NCBI GenBank assembly: GCA_949373095.1
Contig: CASIBY010000009.1
Span: 1-64,000, forward strand
DNA from: Candidatus Poseidoniaceae archaeon
GTDB taxonomy: Archaea > Thermoplasmatota > Poseidoniia > Poseidoniales > Poseidoniaceae
Direction of reading: 5' to 3'
Length of the DNA stretch: 64,000 bases
Part shown: positions 19,799 to 30,655 of the stretch, one piece after another
How positions within the stretch are numbered: position 1 is the first letter of the stretch
How the letters are laid out: each line of letters starts with the position of its first letter
Translations under genes and position numbers: made by a program
The notes under the pieces: generated by a model
Seen by the model: only the letters and a program-made list of their open reading frames with translations
Told to the model about the DNA's origin: nothing
Databases searched by the model: none

Positions 19799-22027
19799 AT
19801 GTCTGACAAAGAGGAATCTGTTTCATTGCGAGTATCAAAAGCCATACCGTCAGACGTAGGACATGGGCGTGCCCGCATATCTGCCGACATGGGGTTGGAC
19901 TTGAAGCCCGGTGACATCGTCGAAATCAGCGGCGATAACCGCTCAACGGCTGCCATTTATTGGCGAAGTCGTCCCGAAGATGCAAAGATGGACATTATTC
20001 GTGTAGACGGAATCATCCGCAAGAATGCTGGAGTCAGTCTCGGCGACCGAGTTACCGTGACGAAAGTTGAAGCAAAAGATTGCACTAAACTCACCATTTC
20101 CCCGGTAATGGCCAACAAACAGAAAGTAAAGTTTGGCCCAGGCATTGAAGGATTTGCACGCAGGGGCCTTGCAAAGCGCCCAGTTGTGGCCGGAGACCGA
20201 ATCTTCATCCCAGGAATGACATTGTTTGCCGAGGCACTACCGTTTGCTGTCGTGCAGACAACCCCCAAAGGTATTGTCAAAGTTACAACTGACACAGAAA
20301 TTGTCATCAAGGACGAAGCCGTTGCTGAGGAAGACGTTGGCCAATCTGAAGGAATCACCTACGAAGACGTTGGCGGAATTGGACAGCAGTTGCTCAAAGT
20401 TCGGGAAATGATAGAATTACCACTTAAGCATCCTGAGTTGTTCCGAAGACTCGGTATTGACCCACCAAAGGGTGTGCTGCTTCACGGACCACCTGGAACT
20501 GGAAAAACAATGATTGCAAAGGCTGTTGCAACCGAAGTCAACGCCCACTTCAAGAGTATTAACGGCCCTGAAATCATCTCCAAGTACTATGGTGAATCCG
20601 AAAAACAATTGCGAGAAATTTTTGATGAAGCATCAGACAACGCTCCAGCAATTATATTCATTGATGAAATTGATTCAATTTGTCCAAAGCGGGAAGATGT
20701 TTCTGGAGAAGTTGAGCGACGTGTTGTTGCTCAAATGCTCACTCTAATGGATGGAATGCAGGGCCGTGAAAATGTCGTGGTTATCGGTGCAACCAATCGG
20801 CGTGATGCCCTTGACCCAGCACTCCGTCGGCCAGGTCGTTTCGACAGGGAAATCGAAATCGGTGTCCCTGACCGTGATGGCCGAAGTGAAATTATGGATG
20901 TCCATACGCGACAAATGCCGATTGCAGAGGATTTTGACATCTCATGGGTACTTGACAACACCTACGGATTTGTAGGCGCTGATCTGGCTGCCCTTGTTCG
21001 TGAAGCAGCAATGCGTGCTCTACGAAGATACCTTCCAGAAATGGACTTGGAAGAGGAAACCATCCCTCCAGAAGTCCTCGAAAAAATGGAAGTCTGCATG
21101 GATGACTTCAAAGAAGCTATCCGTGACATTGAACCCTCTGCTCTAAGAGAAATTTATGTTGAAGTTCCTGAAGTTTCATGGGAAGAGGTCGGAGGACTCA
21201 ATGAAGTCAAAGACCGCCTCAAGGAATCGGTAGAATGGCCACTCACTAAACCTGAACTGTTTGAGCACTTTGGAATCAAGCCACCACGAGGAATCGTACT
21301 CTTTGGCGCCCCAGGTACTGGAAAAACCCTGCTTGCAAAGGCCATTGCGAACGAAGCTCAGGCTAATTTCATCAGTATCAAGGGTCCAGAACTCATCTCG
21401 AAGTGGGTCGGAGAATCTGAACGAGCAATTCGGGAGATTTTCAAGAAGGCTAAGCAATCAGCCCCCTCCATCATCTTCCTTGATGAGTTCGAATCCATCG
21501 CATCCATGAGAAGCGGCGGTTCAGCTTCAGAGGGCAGCGATGTATCAAACCGAGTCGTGAACCAACTTCTTGCGAGCATGGATGGCGTAGAGTCACTTGA
21601 CGGCGTTATCATCGTTGCCGCAACCAACCGCCCAGAAATGATTGACCCTGCACTTTTGCGAAGTGGTCGCTTTGAGCGAGTTCTGCACGTACCTCCGCCA
21701 GACGCCGGCGCTCGAGAAGTCATCTTCAACATCCACAGTGAAGGAATGCCGTTGAGCAAATTCTCTTTCAAGGATATTCTCACAGGCATGGATGGATTTA
21801 CGGGAGCAGACATTGAGGCAGTATGCCGAGAAGCTGCACTCATCTGTATGCGTGCCGGTAAGAAGCGTGTCACTAAGTCCCACTTTGAGGATGCTATCTC
21901 TCGAGTACGACCAACTGTCACTCCGGACATGCTGGATTACTACCAGAAGATGGAAAGCCGTTTGACGTCTGGATTGAGCAATATCAAGCGAAATCGTGAC
22001 TTCAGCCGTGGCATGGAAACCATGTGA
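19799..22027 (+). CDS. cdc48: CDC48/VAT-type AAA+ ATPase (unfoldase)
   Basis: 742 residues: N-terminal double-psi barrel and CDC48_2 domain (about 1-185), then two AAA+ rings. D1 has Walker A GPPGTGKT (~229) and Walker [12 protein letters not shown]2 has GAPGTGKT (~502) and [12 protein letters not shown]. Arg fingers ([24 protein letters not shown]) are present. The hexamer extracts and unfolds proteins, feeding the proteasome in Archaea. The C-terminus ends with FSRGMETM rather than a clear HbYX motif. ATG 19799 follows GAGGAGCG. It is divergent from the aldehyde dehydrogenase and 68 bp ahead of a PRC-barrel gene. Confidence 0.95.
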
Positions 22028-22095
22028 TTTGGCCTCACCATACCGACGCATTCATTTGGCCTCGCTGAAACGGATTGACCACAGAGGTAGATGAG

Positions 22096-22335
22096 ATGGC
22101 GATCTTCGGCAGGGAAGTTATAGGACGTCTGGTCGCTGACCGCACGGGAACCGACCTCGGTAGTTTGACGGACATCCACTTTGACCTCAAAACAGGAGCT
22201 ATTAGCGAACTCATCGTCACTGTTGAAGCAACTGTAAGTGCAGCAGCACTTCCCTTTGAGAGCCGTGAAAACATCGTTATAATTCCCGTAGACGCTGTCT
22301 CTAGAATAGCAACAAAAATTCATCTGAACCGTTGA
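22096..22335 (+). CDS. PRC-barrel domain protein
   Basis: 79 residues starting MAIFGREVIG at ATG 22096, which follows GAGGTAGATGAG; the track's TTG 22075 lacks a ribosome site. The chain is a PRC-barrel: VIGRLVADRTGTDLGSLTDI, then LIVTVEA, then ENIVIIPVDAVSRIA. Single-domain archaeal PRC-barrel proteins are thought to be small adaptors; some act in RNA processing or, as CdpB-type proteins, in cell division. Which applies here cannot be told. It is probably co-transcribed with cdc48. Confidence 0.8.
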   Translation: MAIFGREVIGRLVADRTGTDLGSLTDIHFDLKTGAISELIVTVEATVSAAALPFESRENIVIIPVDAVSRIATKIHLNR

Positions 22336-22414
22336 AACACCCTAGTTTATTGTAACACATTGGATGAGCATTTTATGTTCTTGTTTGGACAACCTTCTAA
22401 AGATAGGTGAAACC

Positions 22415-22444
22415 GTGGAAGAGTGGGTAGTTTCTCCCAAGTGA
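22415..22444 (+). CDS. Possible 9-codon leader ORF
   Basis: GTG GAA GAG TGG then five more codons and TGA. AGGTGA lies 4 nt before the GTG. The TGA overlaps the DUF4350 ATG at 22444 (TGATG), the same junction used by sdhA-sdhB and pyrB-pyrI. It may couple ribosomes onto the next gene; it could also be chance. Confidence 0.3.
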   Translation: MEEWVVSPK

Positions 22445-24063
22445 TGTCTATGGTCGGCCTGCCTGCTAATTTTAACGCCAGAAGGATTGCCCTTCAAGCG
22501 TCATTTTGGCTTGTTATGCTTATCCTACTAATGACAATCCTGCTCAATTTCATCAACCTGAGCGCCACAAACCAACTCTCGGCTTACGATGATGATTGGA
22601 ACGATATGTCTGCGTTCAGACAGGATATCAAAGACATGGGGATTCAAACTAACTCACTCGTGAGTAGTCCGTTGCTCCTCGGCGACATCGAAGACCCCCG
22701 TAACACAACCTACATCCTTGCCGGTGTAGAGCGAGATACACTCACTCTTCCACAATTTGATGAGGACGGTTTCATCACCATTGCATCGGGCAGTGGATAC
22801 TCGCCCTCAGAGATCAACGCCATCGTTGAATTTGTCGAGGCCGGTGGAACGGCGCTTGTCTTGGAGGATTATGGCTACGGAAGTTCTGTTGCAGAGGCGT
22901 TCGGAGTGAGGTTCATGGGCGAGCAGGTATACGATACCAACTACGTCGCAGAACTTGATTTCAATTACATTTGGATGTGCGTTCAGGAGAACCCATGTGG
23001 CATGAACGGTACTAAGATTGACCCGAGCACCCTGTCATCTCACGAGCGCTGGGCCAATGTCGGTGAACAAGGGGAACACCCTTGCTCACTCTTGGATGGA
23101 GAAAGCATGACCGAGGCTGAAGCTGGCCTTTGTACTCAACATTGGAACAGTGGCGTCATTGAATACAACGGCACCTATCAGATGCTACTCAACAATGTCA
23201 CGGGACTTGAGAAAATCCCAGGCGTTCGGGGCCCGCTAAGTGAAGTTGCAGTTCGTGCTATGACCAGCAACGGGGCAACCGTGGACGTTAACGGAGATGG
23301 CGATATACAATTTGGAAGCGAAATAACACCGGCAACACCAGACCGGTGGGGCCAATTCAATCTCACTATCGAAGCATGTGCACGAACCAGTTGCGACCCA
23401 TCCGATGGTGGAAGAATTGTCTTCATGGCTGACGGGTCTGCACTCATTAACGCTATGTACGATTACGAAGGCTTCAACGAAGGAAAATACGGTGAAACCG
23501 CAACGCTCATGCCCGCAAATGACAATCGCAAGTGGGCCATGGATTTCATCGCTGAAGCCTTGATGAGTCAACTGGAAGGCGAAGAAGGTGAACCTGCTGA
23601 GAACGCAATGGTCATTTTTGATGAATCACGACACCCCCAAAGTGCCCTTGCGGCTGATTCTTACAACACGGTTTACTTCCTCCTTGTCTACTTCACTGGA
23701 GAAGGTCTAGCCATGCTCCTTCTTTTCCTCATTCTGTTCGTAGCCTTTGAAGCAGTTCTCATCAAGAAACGTGACCCAGAGCCATGGCGCCACGTATTCA
23801 GCATCATCTACTACGGATTTGGTGATGCCAATAGATATGCTTACTATTCCAAAGTGGAGAAGATTCGCCAAGTGTTCCTTTCTAAGGTTCGAAACCAAAA
23901 CGGACTGAATCGTGAAGAATTCCAAGGTATGCAAGCCAATGAACTCGTTTCAATGATAAGCGACCCTGTTCTTGCCAAATTTGCGGTTGAATCAAACAAC
24001 CGATACACGCTTGAACAGACGGTCGCTCTGGTCAAACGGATTAAGGCGTGGGGACGTCAGTGA
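22444..24063 (+). CDS. DUF4350-type membrane protein
   Basis: 539 residues from ATG 22444 (MSMVGLPANF); the track uses GTG 22423. A TM helix near the N-terminus (SFWLVMLILLMTILLNFI) precedes an external domain of about 350 residues with a DUF4350/GATase-like pattern (AIVEFVEAGGTALVLEDYG). It holds several Cys pairs (CVQENPC, CARTSC) likely to form disulfides. A second TM (LAMLLLFLILFVAFEAVL) leads to a cytoplasmic helical tail. DUF4350 proteins usually sit beside DUF58 and MoxR-type ATPases. Here DUF58 follows by 10 bp, and no MoxR is in the window. Role unknown; membrane-protein assembly or stress has been suggested for such clusters. Confidence 0.7.
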   Translation: MSMVGLPANFNARRIALQASFWLVMLILLMTILLNFINLSATNQLSAYDDDWNDMSAFRQDIKDMGIQTNSLVSSPLLLGDIEDPRNTTYILAGVERDTLTLPQFDEDGFITIASGSGYSPSEINAIVEFVEAGGTALVLEDYGYGSSVAEAFGVRFMGEQVYDTNYVAELDFNYIWMCVQENPCGMNGTKIDPSTLSSHERWANVGEQGEHPCSLLDGESMTEAEAGLCTQHWNSGVIEYNGTYQMLLNNVTGLEKIPGVRGPLSEVAVRAMTSNGATVDVNGDGDIQFGSEITPATPDRWGQFNLTIEACARTSCDPSDGGRIVFMADGSALINAMYDYEGFNEGKYGETATLMPANDNRKWAMDFIAEALMSQLEGEEGEPAENAMVIFDESRHPQSALAADSYNTVYFLLVYFTGEGLAMLLLFLILFVAFEAVLIKKRDPEPWRHVFSIIYYGFGDANRYAYYSKVEKIRQVFLSKVRNQNGLNREEFQGMQANELVSMISDPVLAKFAVESNNRYTLEQTVALVKRIKAWGRQ

Positions 24064-24073
24064 GGTGAGATGA

Positions 24074-25327
24074 ATGTGGACACGTAAGGCTGCTTTCACC
24101 TTCACTGGAGGAATTGCTCTTGTGTTGATTGGAATGATGATTTCCAATCAGCAAATGATGATACTTGGCCTCAGTTTGGTGGCCTTCATCGTGGTTAATT
24201 CATGGATTTCTGGTCATGGTGACGTTGAAGTTCAGCGAACACTCTCCGCTGATAACCTGTACAAAGGAGATGATTTGTATGTTGAACTCCTTATTACGAA
24301 CCGTAGCAACAGGAAAACCCAGATGCTGGACATCTACGATAACATCCCTCACGAGATGAAGTTGCGAAGTGGATTGAATCAGATGCAACTGAACCTCAAA
24401 CCTGGCGAGTCCGCTCGTATTCGCTATGTGCTCCGTTGCCCGTTAAGAGGACACTACTCTCTAGGACCTGTATCACTACGTGCCCGAAACACATTCAATC
24501 TAGGTGTTGAAGACATGTATGTTGACCATCACAGTGACATTGTTATCTTCCCGCAAATCAAGGACATTGAAGAAGCATTCTTGCGAAGCCGCACACCCAA
24601 GATGTACACTGGGGCGACAACTCTACGAACACCAGGGCAAGGGTCTGAATTTTATTCTCTACGAGAGTATGTCCCTGGAGACCCGTTCAAGAACATCAAT
24701 TGGAAAGCATTTGCCCGAACTGGTGAACTGATGGTGAACGAAAAATGCCGAGATGCGGTAACCGACCTCTATCTCATTCTTGACAGCCGAGACCTCGCCC
24801 GCATTGGGACCGTCCTCAAAAATCCCCTCGAGATGGGAACCGTGTCCGCAGCAAGTCTAGCAGCCTTCTTTTTGAAACGCCGAGATTCAGTCGCTCTTGC
24901 AATTTATGATGAAAAATTGTCATATCTTCCACCAGACACCGGTGACAAACAGTACTTCAAGATTCTAAGTGCACTGGCGGGAGTAACACCGAAGGGAACT
25001 ATGCCGCTTCAGGCGGTAACAAACTCGCTCAGTGGAAGATTTAGTCGGGGAAGTCCAGTGTTCGTCATCTCCTCATGCGAAGGCGACGGTACTGTGCCCG
25101 CCGCTGTTCGCGACTTGGTTGGTCGAGGGCACGAAGTAACTGTCTTGTCTCCATCTAGCGTAGACTTTGAACGTCTCGTGAGCAGGATTCCACGTATGTC
25201 GTACGAAGTCCTGAAACTAGAACGACAGAACCGACTCACAACGCTCGCAGGTTCGGGAGCACAAGTCATCGATTGGATGCCCGACATGGATCTGTCACAG
25301 GCATTAATGCAGGTAAAGGGGTACTGA
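24074..25327 (+). CDS. DUF58 domain protein
   Basis: 417 residues. Two N-terminal TM helices (GGIALVLIGMMIS, LGLSLVAFIVVNSWI), a beta-rich segment, then the DUF58 domain with its signature REYVPGDPFKNINWKAFART and a VWA-like fold (LYLILDSRDLARIG, PVFVISSCEGDG). The DxSxS-type metal site is only partly kept (LDSRD). DUF58 proteins are presumed partners of MoxR AAA+ ATPases. ATG 24074 follows GAGGTGAG by 4 nt. It lies between the DUF4350 gene and a multi-pass membrane protein with almost no spacing, so one transcript. Confidence 0.85.
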   Translation: MWTRKAAFTFTGGIALVLIGMMISNQQMMILGLSLVAFIVVNSWISGHGDVEVQRTLSADNLYKGDDLYVELLITNRSNRKTQMLDIYDNIPHEMKLRSGLNQMQLNLKPGESARIRYVLRCPLRGHYSLGPVSLRARNTFNLGVEDMYVDHHSDIVIFPQIKDIEEAFLRSRTPKMYTGATTLRTPGQGSEFYSLREYVPGDPFKNINWKAFARTGELMVNEKCRDAVTDLYLILDSRDLARIGTVLKNPLEMGTVSAASLAAFFLKRRDSVALAIYDEKLSYLPPDTGDKQYFKILSALAGVTPKGTMPLQAVTNSLSGRFSRGSPVFVISSCEGDGTVPAAVRDLVGRGHEVTVLSPSSVDFERLVSRIPRMSYEVLKLERQNRLTTLAGSGAQVIDWMPDMDLSQALMQVKGY

Positions 25328-25329
25328 AG

Positions 25330-26547
25330 ATGGCAGGTGAAGTAGGTCTCCAGTCAGATGTTCTTATGGAAGGCACCGCTCGTCCAAGAACACTTCATCT
25401 GAAAAATTTGAGGCGTCAATGGCAGATCCTTTGCCTCCAAATCGTTGCAACAATTGCCCTCATCACCATGTATGTCCAAGTGGTCCAAACTTACGTCGTA
25501 GGATCCATAGACCATACCATCCTGTTTGACTCCATTGAATTACTGATATCAGACCAGCTCCCTCTGGGTGACTGGTTAACAGGAGAAGGAAGAGAGGGTC
25601 TTTCGAGATTCTTTGTTCCAATGGTCATGGGACTTGGCTTAGGCGGAATCATGGCCTTCATTGCATTCCAAAGTCCCAAGGTTCAGCAGAGAATCAAATT
25701 AGGATTCATCGTTGGCCTGATTGTTCTTCTCGTTGGACGCCTTCTTCTTTCTTGGTTTGCTGGAATGCTGTTTGAATTCAACCTGCGACTACCTGACGAA
25801 GGTGAATTAGAAACCCTTCAGTGGCCTCTCCTCATGATTTTGTCACTCATCATCCTCTTCATCTATCTCTTACCCGTTATCATGGGTACTCGAGGCATAT
25901 GGGGTCTATCACGCCGTTCAATCGCTTGGGCAATCGGTTTCACACTCCTTTTCCTAGGAATTCATGCCATTCTCACCTTCCCGCTTATCAAAGGACAACT
26001 TGGGTCCTATGGTGGAGTTCTAGCCACGCTTGAGAGTCAAACATCAGACCCTACAATCGGACTCTTTGGTCTGAATTTGGTTACAAAGGAACAGTTCGAC
26101 CTCATCCTCATAGCAGTACTCATCATGGTGTTCCAAGAAGCGAGTTACGGCGTAATCCGGAACCTTGAGTATGCATTCCGCCTTCCTGAATCGTGCAAGC
26201 GCGACCCAGAATATGTGCGCCAAATGGATAACGTACTCAACACTCACTTGCGCCATACATTCTTTTTCTTAGGCTTGACAGGACTAGCGACGATGGTCGC
26301 ATTAGGTTTCCACAAAGTTCTCCTCACCATCGTTTCAGATACGACAGGCAGTCAGTGGGCAGGACAGGTTTCAGAATCCATTGAATTAACTCTTACCTAC
26401 GGATTAGTCATCTCCGCTTTGCTGTTCCTTAGCATCATGTCTGTGCTGAGGTTCTTTATCCCATGGCAGCGAGTCATAGGGCTGATACAGTCACGGGGAG
26501 TGAAGGATGATACGAAGCCCGCAACTAAGGACTTCACACAACTTTGA
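25330..26547 (+). CDS. Multi-pass membrane protein of DUF58 operon
   Basis: 405 residues from ATG 25330 (MAGEVGLQSD), two bases after the DUF58 stop; the track start lies inside DUF58. I count seven to eight TM helices, for example ILCLQIVATIALITMYVQVV, LGFIVGLIVLLVGRLLLSW and WAIGFTLLFLGIHAILTF. I recognise no family. The order DUF4350-DUF58-this gene suggests a membrane complex. Its TGA abuts the stop of the convergent gene (TGATCA). Confidence 0.75.
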   Translation: MAGEVGLQSDVLMEGTARPRTLHLKNLRRQWQILCLQIVATIALITMYVQVVQTYVVGSIDHTILFDSIELLISDQLPLGDWLTGEGREGLSRFFVPMVMGLGLGGIMAFIAFQSPKVQQRIKLGFIVGLIVLLVGRLLLSWFAGMLFEFNLRLPDEGELETLQWPLLMILSLIILFIYLLPVIMGTRGIWGLSRRSIAWAIGFTLLFLGIHAILTFPLIKGQLGSYGGVLATLESQTSDPTIGLFGLNLVTKEQFDLILIAVLIMVFQEASYGVIRNLEYAFRLPESCKRDPEYVRQMDNVLNTHLRHTFFFLGLTGLATMVALGFHKVLLTIVSDTTGSQWAGQVSESIELTLTYGLVISALLFLSIMSVLRFFIPWQRVIGLIQSRGVKDDTKPATKDFTQL

Positions 26548-26787
26548 TCATTGATTGGACTGAATCAATCGCCCAATCATCTCACTTGTTGCCAGTAAAA
26601 GCAATGGGAAGGCGATAAAGCCAATCGTAAATCCAATCCAATTCGTGTTGAACTGGTCGCTAATGCTGCCACCATAAACGCTGGTTATGACAACGACTGC
26701 AACCAGCATGAATCGTTCAAGAAACAGGGGGTATGGTCGACCTTTCGCTTCTTCCCGCCCTAGGAGAGTTGTCGGTTCACTTGACAA
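26548..26787 (-). CDS. Small membrane protein, last gene of Roadblock operon
   Basis: 79 residues. I place the start at TTG 26787 because TGAGGTG, formed by the upstream gene's stop, lies 6 nt before it; the track start (26829) overlaps the giant gene. Two TM helices: FMLVAVVVITSVYGGS and IGFTIGFIAFPLLLLATSEM. No family recognised. The spacing (10 bp) links it to the coiled-coil Roadblock protein, so it may be a membrane anchor for it (inference). Confidence 0.6.
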   Translation of the reverse strand: MSSEPTTLLGREEAKGRPYPLFLERFMLVAVVVITSVYGGSISDQFNTNWIGFTIGFIAFPLLLLATSEMIGRLIQSNQ

Positions 26788-26797
26788 CTTTAGCACC

Positions 26798-29700
26798 TCA
26801 GAAATCAATATTTGAAAGGCGTGATTCAAGGTCGGCTAAAGCAGAATCAGAAGGAGAACTTGTAGCGGTTGGCGTCGTATCTCTATGACCCCATTCAGCA
26901 TCGATACGCGCTAATTCAGCCTCGAGTTGGGCTCGTTCGTCATCAAGGTCAAGTTTAGTTGGCTGTGTCGTACCTTGCGCAATGGTAGCTGCTGGTAGTG
27001 AGTCGCTTGGTGCGGGTAAATCTGACCAACCATCGGTATCGGTAGTCGAGAGTTCCGCCTGACCCAAATCGATGTCTTCTTCATGAAGCAAAGATGGCTC
27101 AAGGTCAACTAGCATGTCTTCATCAACTGGAAGACGTTGACTTGATGGGATGGATTCTCTCTCGAATGGAAGAAGACCGTCCCGTTGGAATTCCCAAAGC
27201 ATACCTCTTGGAATACCATCGGTAAGCCCGGAGGCATCAAGTTGAGTAATGAGTTCTTCCAGAACACGGGCTGTTTCCTCCAATCCAATGGCTTCACCAG
27301 CATCTCGTTGATCTGCTTCAAGGTAAATGTCATCCAAAGCAACCTGAATCAATTTACGAGTGCCTTGGGCGAGACTTGGAAGCGCTTCAGGACGTTGACA
27401 GTTGGTCATCAAAGCGTGTACTTCATGACTTGGCGCCCCCAGGCGTTCAATTTGCTCAAGAACATTCCTAATTCTGCGTAGCATGGTGATGGAACGGTCG
27501 TAATCTTCTAGCAGATGTTCCAAATCCAAAACAACGTGGTTGACGGTTTCTCCGAGTTGATGTTCCAATCGTTGTTGAACAGACCAGCGGGCGAGTCCTC
27601 GAACCGCCCCTGCTGTTTGTGGAACCTGACGCTCGAGTAACGTCATAACCTCAGATGAAAGAAGATGACGGGGGGTGGCAGCGACATGGTCAACGGTTGA
27701 TTGAATGACCTGAAGTGCACGCTCAACGGCACGGTCGAGCATGGTCACTGAGTAACCGAGTTCACGAGCATGTTCAAGACGTTCAAGCACAGGGCCCAGA
27801 CCTTCGAAGGTGTTGTTGTCGTCAAGAAGAGCTTGTGCAAGGGGCTCTTCTGCAAGACGGGCTCGTAGGCGTTCAGCTTCCTGGATATCTGCAAGGGCTT
27901 CTTCATGCGCTTGAGAAAGAGTAGTTGCCTTTTCAACAAGAGACGAAAGTTCTGCTTCTGCGTGCCCGCGACGGGCGCCCATGTCTCCAAGTTCACGGAG
28001 AAGTGTTCGGCGTTCATCCATTAATTCTCGGAGTTCAGCCTGAACGTTTGAACGGCGGGACTCATCCTCTGCACGACGAAGGCGGTCTTCTTCCATGCGA
28101 GTCTTTGACATGGATTCCTCAGTTTTGATAGCTTCTAATTCGAGTTGATGCACGTGAACTTGTTCCTGGAGCGTGAGCACATCTGATTGGCTTCTTGCAT
28201 GACGCTCTCTCGTCGTACTGACTTGCTCTGTGAGTACACGCAAGCGACGCTCTTCGTCCTCGCTTTGTTGCCGTATTGTATTCAGGCGCTTACTACCCTC
28301 TGTCAAATTAGCCTGAAGTTCGGCTTCCTTGAGCGCAAGTGTTTCTATCATTTCTTGAAGTTCACTACTCGCTTCTGCGTCACCCAAAGCTTTCGCCAAT
28401 TCTGCAGCACGCTCGCTGACTTGATATTCAAGTTCATTCACCCGGCGTACGAGACGTTCAGCACGGTGTTCTGCATCTTCCGATTGGTTACGAGATTCTG
28501 CAAGATCAACTTGCAAACTGTTGAGGCGAGCATGTGCCTCCTCAAGGGCAACGGTATGCTCTTGGCGTGTTTCGCTTGCCTCACGAGCAACAATCTGGGC
28601 GGCTGTTTTCTTCGTTTCCAATTCCTTATTCTTACCTTCAAGGAGGGCTTTAGCCTTAGTCATTTCATCCAGAGATTGCTGAGCAGACTCGAGTTTTCGG
28701 CGTAAGCCAGCGTCAACAGCAGCAACTGCTTCCCCTTGCATTACTGGTAGACCATCTCCCACTTCCATGCCTGCGGTTGAAAAATTGACCTTCCCTCGTT
28801 GAAATCGTAATTCTTCCAAACCTGCTTCAAAACCAAGCATTTCCTCCAAAGAGGCCCTAATTGATGCCTGCCGAGCCTCTGAACGGGTTCGTACGGTTGA
28901 TAACTGGTCGCAGAAAGATTTGAGCTTGAACGTTTCAAAGGAGCCTGAATTCGAAGAGACAACCGTGCCAGCTGGAAAACGAATTAATTGCAACTTTCGC
29001 TTTGGTTCAGTAAGCATTGTCATGGCAGCGCTTTCGTCATCTGCGTTTGGAGCCCAAAGAGCCACAGGAACTCCCCGTGAAAGAATGAGTGAGACGGACT
29101 TTGAGGAAGCTCCGGATTGAATGTGGCCGGTGACCTCCTCGTCCATGCCCGCTTTGAGCAGAGAAAGGATGGCATCAGGGCCACCTCGCCCTTCGCGAAG
29201 AGGGAATCCATCGGGCAGACTTGTGCCGTGCTCTCCAATCGATGCAACATCTCCCTCAAGGATGAGTGATGCAGAAGAGAGGAGACGGGCATGGTTTGCT
29301 TCCCGTTCGGTCCAAATTGCAAGAGCAATTTCTCCACTTTGTGCCAGGAGCAGTGCACCATCCGAAGTGTGCAGGGTCCAATGACCCGAAGGCCCCAATC
29401 CCAATCCTAGATTGATATCTTCTACACGGATATCAGAGAGAATGCTGTGAATCTGAGACGAGAGAGACTCAGCTTCTCGCGGGAGGTCCCCTGCTTCATC
29501 AATGAGCATACCTGAATCAATAGCGATGGCTCCCCGTACGGTTTCATCTTCAACGAGGTGGTTCAGAACTTTGGACAAGTCTCGTGCGAGGAGACGCTCG
29601 ACGAAATTCGTCATTGAGCGAAGTCCTTGCCGGTCTGCTTGATGAACAAACGCTTCTGGGACGAGCTCCGCCACATCACCAAGTCCGGCGATGGTGTATT

Positions 29701-29971
29701 CTGTAGCAGTGAACCTTACTTTCTGTTCGGATTCTAGTGCGAGCAGAGCCTGCTGAGCCTCATCACCGGCAAGCAAATCTCGCTTCTGAGTGTATTTACT
29801 TCCTTCAGCCAACCATCCAACAATACGTCCTGCTCGAACAAGACGATGGCCCGCTGGAGTTTTTCGTCGCCCCACCCATGTTGAGATCACACCATGAGCG
29901 AAGGGTTGCAGCGTTCCAGCGGTCAAATCTATGTCTTCATCGACTGGAGTTCCAAAGGGCATTTCAAACAT
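26798..29971 (-). CDS. Giant coiled-coil protein with Roadblock/LC7-like region
   Basis: 1057 residues, no signal peptide. Residues 1-110 form a globular domain I do not recognise. About 120-240 (GAIAIDSGMLIDEAGDLP, LHTSDGALLLAQSGEIAL) has the fold pattern of a Roadblock/LC7 domain, like the separate gene upstream. About 255-380 is another globular part. About 420-720 is a long coiled coil (AEHRAERLVRRVNELEYQV). About 740-930 is all-helical, and 950-1057 is acidic and disordered with LDLDDERAQLEAELARIDAE. The overall shape recalls SMC-like or golgin-like tethers, but there is no ATPase motif. ATG 29971 follows GGTGA; the Roadblock gene ends 10 bp upstream. A scaffold or polarity role is a guess. 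Confidence 0.7.
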   Translation of the reverse strand: MFEMPFGTPVDEDIDLTAGTLQPFAHGVISTWVGRRKTPAGHRLVRAGRIVGWLAEGSKYTQKRDLLAGDEAQQALLALESEQKVRFTATEYTIAGLGDVAELVPEAFVHQADRQGLRSMTNFVERLLARDLSKVLNHLVEDETVRGAIAIDSGMLIDEAGDLPREAESLSSQIHSILSDIRVEDINLGLGLGPSGHWTLHTSDGALLLAQSGEIALAIWTEREANHARLLSSASLILEGDVASIGEHGTSLPDGFPLREGRGGPDAILSLLKAGMDEEVTGHIQSGASSKSVSLILSRGVPVALWAPNADDESAAMTMLTEPKRKLQLIRFPAGTVVSSNSGSFETFKLKSFCDQLSTVRTRSEARQASIRASLEEMLGFEAGLEELRFQRGKVNFSTAGMEVGDGLPVMQGEAVAAVDAGLRRKLESAQQSLDEMTKAKALLEGKNKELETKKTAAQIVAREASETRQEHTVALEEAHARLNSLQVDLAESRNQSEDAEHRAERLVRRVNELEYQVSERAAELAKALGDAEASSELQEMIETLALKEAELQANLTEGSKRLNTIRQQSEDEERRLRVLTEQVSTTRERHARSQSDVLTLQEQVHVHQLELEAIKTEESMSKTRMEEDRLRRAEDESRRSNVQAELRELMDERRTLLRELGDMGARRGHAEAELSSLVEKATTLSQAHEEALADIQEAERLRARLAEEPLAQALLDDNNTFEGLGPVLERLEHARELGYSVTMLDRAVERALQVIQSTVDHVAATPRHLLSSEVMTLLERQVPQTAGAVRGLARWSVQQRLEHQLGETVNHVVLDLEHLLEDYDRSITMLRRIRNVLEQIERLGAPSHEVHALMTNCQRPEALPSLAQGTRKLIQVALDDIYLEADQRDAGEAIGLEETARVLEELITQLDASGLTDGIPRGMLWEFQRDGLLPFERESIPSSQRLPVDEDMLVDLEPSLLHEEDIDLGQAELSTTDTDGWSDLPAPSDSLPAATIAQGTTQPTKLDLDDERAQLEAELARIDAEWGHRDTTPTATSSPSDSALADLESRLSNIDF

Positions 29972-29981
29972 GTTAGTTCAC

Positions 29982-30323
29982 CTACATTTCAGGGGTTGTT
30001 GCAAGAGACTTGCGATTGAGGTCAACGCTGTGCCTCCACCTCGCAAGTTTTCCGCCTTTTCCGTGCAGCATCAGAATGCGGTACGGTGTGACGATGTCGA
30101 TCATGGTCCGGGTATCACTCTCTTCCCAAATCTCGTAAAGTTCACCGAGGCCAAGGTTTTGAGTTGCTTCCAGAGCGGTTGATGTCATTAAGACCGTGCG
30201 TTCAACGTCCGGAAATGACCCCGATTGTCCAATACTTGCCATGAGACGTCCTCGGTCATCAATCATCAGAGCTTGTTCGACACCGTTTTGGGTCGTCAAA
30301 GCGGATAATAGCCGTTGTAGCAT
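29982..30323 (-). CDS. Roadblock/LC7 domain protein
   Basis: 113 residues, a single domain: VEQALMIDDRGRLMASIGQS is the first strand-turn-strand, a central helix (RTVLMTSTALEATQNLG) follows, then IDIVTPYRILMLHGKGGKLA. Roadblock proteins such as MglB and dynein light chain LC7 dimerise and often regulate small Ras-like GTPases. No GTPase is in this window. ATG 30323 follows GAGGTTGAG. It is first in an operon with the coiled-coil protein and a small membrane protein, transcribed from a divergent region that contains two palindromes. Confidence 0.8.
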   Translation of the reverse strand: MLQRLLSALTTQNGVEQALMIDDRGRLMASIGQSGSFPDVERTVLMTSTALEATQNLGLGELYEIWEESDTRTMIDIVTPYRILMLHGKGGKLARWRHSVDLNRKSLATTPEM

Positions 30324-30655
30324 GGTCGCTCAACCTCAGTGACACCGCTGTAGCCTTCAAGAAGTTTTGCGCTCAAGAAGGGTTTTCTGTTGATTTGAGG
30401 ACCCTATTGGAATTTCCAACTGGAAAATATATTTCAAGCGCTAGGAAGCAAGGCGGTGTACCTTGATTCGGAAATATTGAGGCCCAAAGCAATCTAAACA
30501 GCCTCACCACACTCGGCTCCACGGCACCTCATCACCGATAAATTTTTAAATATAAAAATCAAATTTCCAATTGGAAAATTAAAGCAAATCTCTGCTTAGG
30601 CATTCTCAATAACGAAGCAGTTGATTTGAAACACTCCAGCCACGCCCCACCGGTT
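30324..30655. promoter_or_regulatory. Divergent regulatory region between Roadblock operon and tRNA thiolase
   Basis: 332 bp without a gene. It holds two related palindromes: TTTCCAACTGGAAA (30413-30426) and the perfect TTTCCAATTGGAAA (30564-30577), 151 bp apart. An A/T block TTTTTAAATATAAAAAT at 30543-30559 lies just before the second and is a good TATA box for the rightward gene. Dimeric-repressor operators are a reasonable reading, with the right-hand one just downstream of the TATA box. Confidence 0.5.

Follow-up and report, generated by a model that had tools for sequence, protein, structure and literature searches.

The window, a 64,000-nucleotide stretch of a Poseidoniales genome (1.87 Mb, 82% complete), carries on its minus strand a compact operon of three genes. 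It runs from a stand-alone Roadblock/LC7 protein, hereafter RB1, through a large coiled-coil protein to a small protein with two transmembrane (TM) helices:

30413–30426, minus strand: leader box TTTCCAGTTGGAAA
30354–30369, minus strand: leader box CAAAACTTCTTGAAGG, a single occurrence in the window
30324–30430, minus strand: conserved leader/promoter of the operon, from aligned upstream regions
29982–30323, minus strand: RB1, stand-alone Roadblock/LC7 protein, 113 aa, from Pfam matches over orthologues and a PDB profile match
26798–29971, minus strand: large protein, 1057 aa, an open frame with orthologues
26548–26787, minus strand: two-TM protein, 79 aa, start TTG 26787, with a conserved stretch before the TM helices and presence in 48 of 49 loci

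Gaps of 10 nt separate RB1 from the large gene and, again, the large gene from the TM gene, and each gene is preceded by a putative Shine–Dalgarno site (GAGG for RB1, GGTGA for the large gene and GGTG for the TM gene), in agreement with a preliminary description of this DNA as three close-packed genes with 10-bp gaps and a ribosome site each. The longest frame of the TM gene opens at TTG 26829; its start is most likely TTG 26787, because its relatives start 1–12 nt past the stop of the large gene. The preliminary description had carried the unit to 30655, which is too far: RB1 starts at 30323, positions 30324–30655 are a divergent promoter region, and the limit drawn there falls about 30 nt within the neighbouring TtuA-like frame.

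Across Poseidoniales, the motifs AGTTGG and CTTGAA are invariant in 16 aligned upstream regions, with the AGTTGG box about 100 nt and the CTTGAA box about 40 nt upstream of RB1 (30354–30426, minus strand). Between the two boxes many genera, not clearly including that of the window, have a G–C hairpin of varying sequence. A palindrome of the same kind as in the operon leader, TTTCCAATTGGAAA, lies at 30564–30577 upstream of the divergent TtuA-like gene, and TTTCCANNTGGAAA occurs twice in the window, where shuffling predicts 0.01 sites. No Rfam match points to a structured RNA in the operon region. A defence system was considered and rejected, the three window proteins having no PADLOC match.

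The window copy of RB1 matches the Pfam Roadblock model at E 0.0055 and 16.9 bits, below the cut-off of 23; across the family, 10 of 16 members match, the best at E 9e-8, and the orthologue in genome G069 exceeds the cut-off. Searched against the PDB, the profile built from this family matches solved Roadblock proteins, 7f8m at E 9e-10 and 7yh1 at E 4e-7. These matches place RB1, by sequence, in the Roadblock/LC7 superfamily and uphold the earlier view of the first gene as a lone Roadblock domain. Roadblock domains generally pair. The likeness between RB1 and the Roadblock domain inside the large protein is distant and not significant by hhalign, so sequence does not imply that the two form a heterodimer.

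The large protein can be divided into six regions:

29642–29971, minus strand: residues 1–110, N-terminal domain, from AlphaFold2 (AF2), with low confidence here
29252–29590, minus strand: residues 128–240, Roadblock domain, from a profile, Pfam in orthologues, AF2, Foldseek and hhalign
28892–29209, minus strand: residues 255–360, third N-terminal domain, from AF2 with pLDDT mostly 80–92
27848–28738, minus strand: residues 412–708, coiled coil, from AF2 helices and heptad pattern
27137–27841, minus strand: residues 711–945, helical domain, from conservation
26801–27136, minus strand: residues 946–1057, acidic tail, from charge count, low pLDDT and a conserved end

The window copy of the large protein has no Pfam Roadblock match; in orthologues from several genera the Pfam model matches this same region, and a profile of residues 118–262 finds 3leq at E 7e-5. 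Our AF2 model of residues 1–400 (mean pLDDT 64.6) predicts for residues 132–237 the Roadblock order, helix-strand-strand-helix-strand-strand-strand-helix, with pLDDT of about 76–84 in the first half of the domain and lower values in the second. A Foldseek search with this model returns 94 matches at E <= 0.001, the best at E 3e-6, and the best 50 of the 94 are all Roadblock, MglB, LAMTOR or dynein-type chains. Because profile, orthologue Pfam matches, predicted topology and Foldseek concur, the central claim of the preliminary description is confirmed: sequence and model alike assign residues ~130–240 a Roadblock fold, in the region (residues 120–240) where its absence would have told against that description.

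Small alpha–beta domains are predicted on both sides of this Roadblock. Residues 1–110 comprise strands within 26–56, a helix at 69–80 and a strand at 85–89 in the AF2 model, with no Pfam match and no convincing PDB match; residues 255–360 comprise a helix, three strands, a helix and a strand, with neither a Pfam nor a PDB sequence match. By eye, we took both to have a PATAN-like layout. A PATAN/DUF4388 assignment was rejected, as no family member matched PF14332 at E <= 1 and the two regions did not match each other by hhalign.

The coiled coil of about 300 residues noted earlier is borne out by two long helices in the full-length AF2 model (412–526 and 534–708), with heptad spacing over most of its length; if continuous, it would measure about 43 nm. 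The full-length model is of low confidence (mean pLDDT 58.8), the AF2 alignments are shallow (28–30 sequences), and Foldseek with this model gives no match at E <= 0.001. A coil of this kind could belong to a chromosome protein of SMC/Rad50 type, and indeed NCBIfam SMC and Rad50 models match it at E 2e-6 to 2e-5, while SMC coil fragments appear low in the Foldseek list. However, the model matches lie far below the cut-offs and extend from the coil into the helical region behind it, neither a Walker A nor an ABC signature motif is present in the large protein, its N-terminus is a Roadblock domain rather than a head domain, and its operon includes a membrane protein. With the ATPase head missing, SMC/Rad50 identity is largely refuted, and we regard this reading as most improbable.

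The best-conserved part of the large protein across Poseidoniales is neither the Roadblock nor most of the coil, but the coil end together with the helical domain (about residues 640–955, 72% mean column identity), which the preliminary description had missed. The helical domain has no convincing relative in the PDB; its best match, to FliS, is weak (E 0.014), and a FliS-like identity was rejected on that account. The domain was not found outside Poseidoniales among the 293 Thermoplasmatota genomes sampled, and the large protein as a whole likewise had no homologue in the non-Poseidoniales part of that sample. The conservation peak at ~640–945 points to a strongly constrained partner, which we infer this region may contact. 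Behind it, the tail is acidic as first described (27 D/E against 6 K/R in residues 946–1057) and predicted to be mostly disordered, with low pLDDT over most of its length and a conserved last helix. In a single-chromosome MG-II genome (CM001443.1; locus L086, 8001–11173), the large gene is frameshifted near residue 945, at the tail start, through sequencing error or in reality.

The third gene was correctly recognized at the outset as encoding a two-TM protein, since two TM helices are predicted in most orthologues. Ahead of the first helix, most orthologues conserve a stretch of the form TLLGRxExxGxxYPxxLER.

An orthologue of the large gene is present in 88 of the 146 Poseidoniales genomes surveyed, with an uneven distribution over the two families: 72 of 73 genomes in the first and 16 of 73 in the second. 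Single absences mean little because the surveyed genomes are drafts, and the sole first-family genome without the gene is probably an incomplete bin. Among 50 loci examined, an open-reading-frame test finds RB1 directly upstream of the large gene in 48 of the 49 with room for it, and phmmer matches RB1 at the exception. Downstream of the large gene, the TM gene is present in 48 of 49 loci, the exception having unread bases. Order and spacing of the triad are thus kept in essentially every complete locus checked, in both families; the preliminary description would have been undercut had the genes parted in relatives, and they have stayed together. That the three genes travel together supports a joint function. 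The flanking gene order is likewise conserved across Poseidoniales, which counts against the weight of the triad order. At 19799–26547 lie genes for a Cdc48-type ATPase, an 86-aa PRC-barrel protein, DUF4350 and DUF58 proteins and a 424-aa membrane protein, in an order that is constant across Poseidoniales whether or not the operon is present.

The three genes are inherited together. Nine genomes that lack the large gene have TtuA directly next to the gene for the 424-aa membrane protein, with all three operon genes cleanly absent. In a tree built from five neighbouring proteins, these nine triad-less genomes form one derived clade within the second family (SH-aLRT 100), and a single loss is therefore the simplest account of the absence.

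Roadblock proteins have mainly been studied as helpers of small GTPases, and their usual partner is a Ras-type GTPase. The preliminary description had noted no GTPase in the window, and our search extends this: with one family model, PF00025 (Arf family), none of 27 Poseidoniales genomes, including one single-contig, 96%-complete genome, has a match above the cut-off. Two weak sub-threshold matches were seen, and 13 of 14 control genomes match. The lack of an Arf/Ras-type GTPase in this search would leave a Roadblock hub either purely structural or read by another NTPase.

This result bears directly on the idea that the operon organizes a cell pole or the archaellum or adhesion apparatus, much as an MglA/MglB polarity module does. 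The internal Roadblock does fall near MglB in the Foldseek search, and operon and archaellin occur together in nearly the whole first family. However, no MglA-type GTPase, the partner such a module calls for, was found in the 27 genomes searched with PF00025 or in the neighbourhood. The second family shows both kinds of mismatch: the operon is present and archaellin unmatched in genera g16 and g21, and archaellin is matched and the operon missing in g13 and g20. We consider a polarity organizer of this kind quite unlikely, and the polarity role first suggested is not supported, as archaellin presence does not track the operon in the second family. A link to the archaellum was rejected on the discordance between PF01917 archaellin and operon in these four genera; PF04659 has no match anywhere in Poseidoniales and is uninformative on this point. 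The archaellum has been reported for every genus of the first family and half of those in the second, and argued to serve adhesion in these archaea (Rinke and others, PMC6461757); the operon does not follow that distribution genus by genus.

Elsewhere in the genome lies a second stand-alone Roadblock, RB2 (genome G000, contig C5:63939–64253; locus L175, 7901–8254), related both to RB1 (hhalign 97%) and to the internal Roadblock of the large protein (hhalign 94.5%). Its presence and absence coincide with those of the large gene in the 146 genomes, save for scattered draft-genome gaps; in the second family, leaving out one spurious frame, RB2 accompanies the large gene in 16 of 16 genomes and occurs in 0 of the ~57 that lack it. 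Where RB2 is missing, nothing occupies its slot, and the coiled-coil gene and the DUF7121 gene on either side are retained. The surrounding array (coil1, coil2, DUF7121) is conserved around the slot also in genomes without RB2 (L175, L177, L184–L192).

Adjoining RB2 in several genera, wherever both were read (L177, 9852–10541; L178, 4194–4892; L180, 7457–8137), is a gene for a KaiC-like ATPase, whose orthologues occur in 28 genomes, all of which have the large gene and which include 15 of the 16 second-family genomes with it. Together with the distribution of RB2, this could indicate a signalling hub built around the ATPase: the Roadblocks at the operon and at the RB2 locus would regulate it or sense it, and the large protein would relay the signal. 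Against this, the operon is kept in the genus of the window and in most of its family although the ATPase is missing there, and no direct link joins the RB2 locus to the operon. Moreover, the absences of operon and RB2 fall on one branch and therefore reflect a common fate once, not repeated linkage; this one event could be general gene loss. We accordingly rejected the co-occurrence as strong linkage, the tree showing one shared loss, and think such a signalling hub rather unlikely. Unlikely, too, in our estimate is a GTPase-free hub at the membrane made up of RB1, RB2 and the Roadblock-bearing coiled-coil giant, with the KaiC-like ATPase as its nucleotide switch.

The reading that we favour, at what we judge to be an even chance, is that the operon encodes a membrane-tethered Roadblock scaffold. 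From what is known of the Roadblock family, RB1 would pair with the internal Roadblock of the large protein, and family knowledge and gene order suggest that the TM protein would bind this hub at the membrane through its conserved cytoplasmic stretch. The coil would dimerize and hold the conserved helical domain off the membrane, where that domain may bind its strongly constrained partner; in this detail the scaffold reading is open to challenge, as the coil might instead assemble into higher oligomers or double back on itself. The hub might be purely structural or be read by an NTPase other than a GTPase, for which the KaiC-like ATPase beside RB2 would be the best candidate in the lineages that have it.

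Poseidoniales are among the most abundant surface-ocean archaea, and their cell biology is barely known. The operon is a candidate cytoplasmic scaffold in these archaea and, as a Roadblock operon conserved across an order in which the PF00025 search of 27 genomes found no such GTPase, offers a concrete case for orphan Roadblock function.

Among known systems, the eukaryotic Ragulator/LAMTOR complex offers a likeness in that its Roadblock domains are held at a membrane via a separate small anchor, as we infer here, and the internal Roadblock has Foldseek matches to LAMTOR chains. Ragulator has Rag GTPases, whereas none was found for the Poseidoniales operon (PF00025, 27 genomes); its anchor is a lipidated wrapper, whereas the putative anchor here is a two-TM protein; and, unlike in Ragulator, a large coiled-coil protein carries one of the Roadblocks as a built-in domain. 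The resemblance is one of layout only. With the SMC/Rad50 coiled-coil ATPases the large protein shares a long coil but not the ATPase head. For RB1 and RB2, the nearest sequences with solved structures are Asgard Roadblock proteins (7f8m, 7yh1 and 9jue), and to our knowledge neither a fused coil nor a TM partner has been reported for these Asgard proteins. Asgard archaea carry small GTPases (PMC10933270). MglB and MglC of bacterial polarity systems, and the conservon protein CvnB5, share the Roadblock fold, with matches to MglB and MglC of M. xanthus and to CvnB5; the Poseidoniales differ in having no MglA-type GTPase nearby or in the 27 genomes searched with PF00025. Orphan MglB homologues were known by 2014, none of them characterized at that time (PMC4316618). 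A class of orphan, GTPase-less Roadblock/MglB proteins is therefore already known, and what is new here is the architecture of the large protein and the operon that encodes it.
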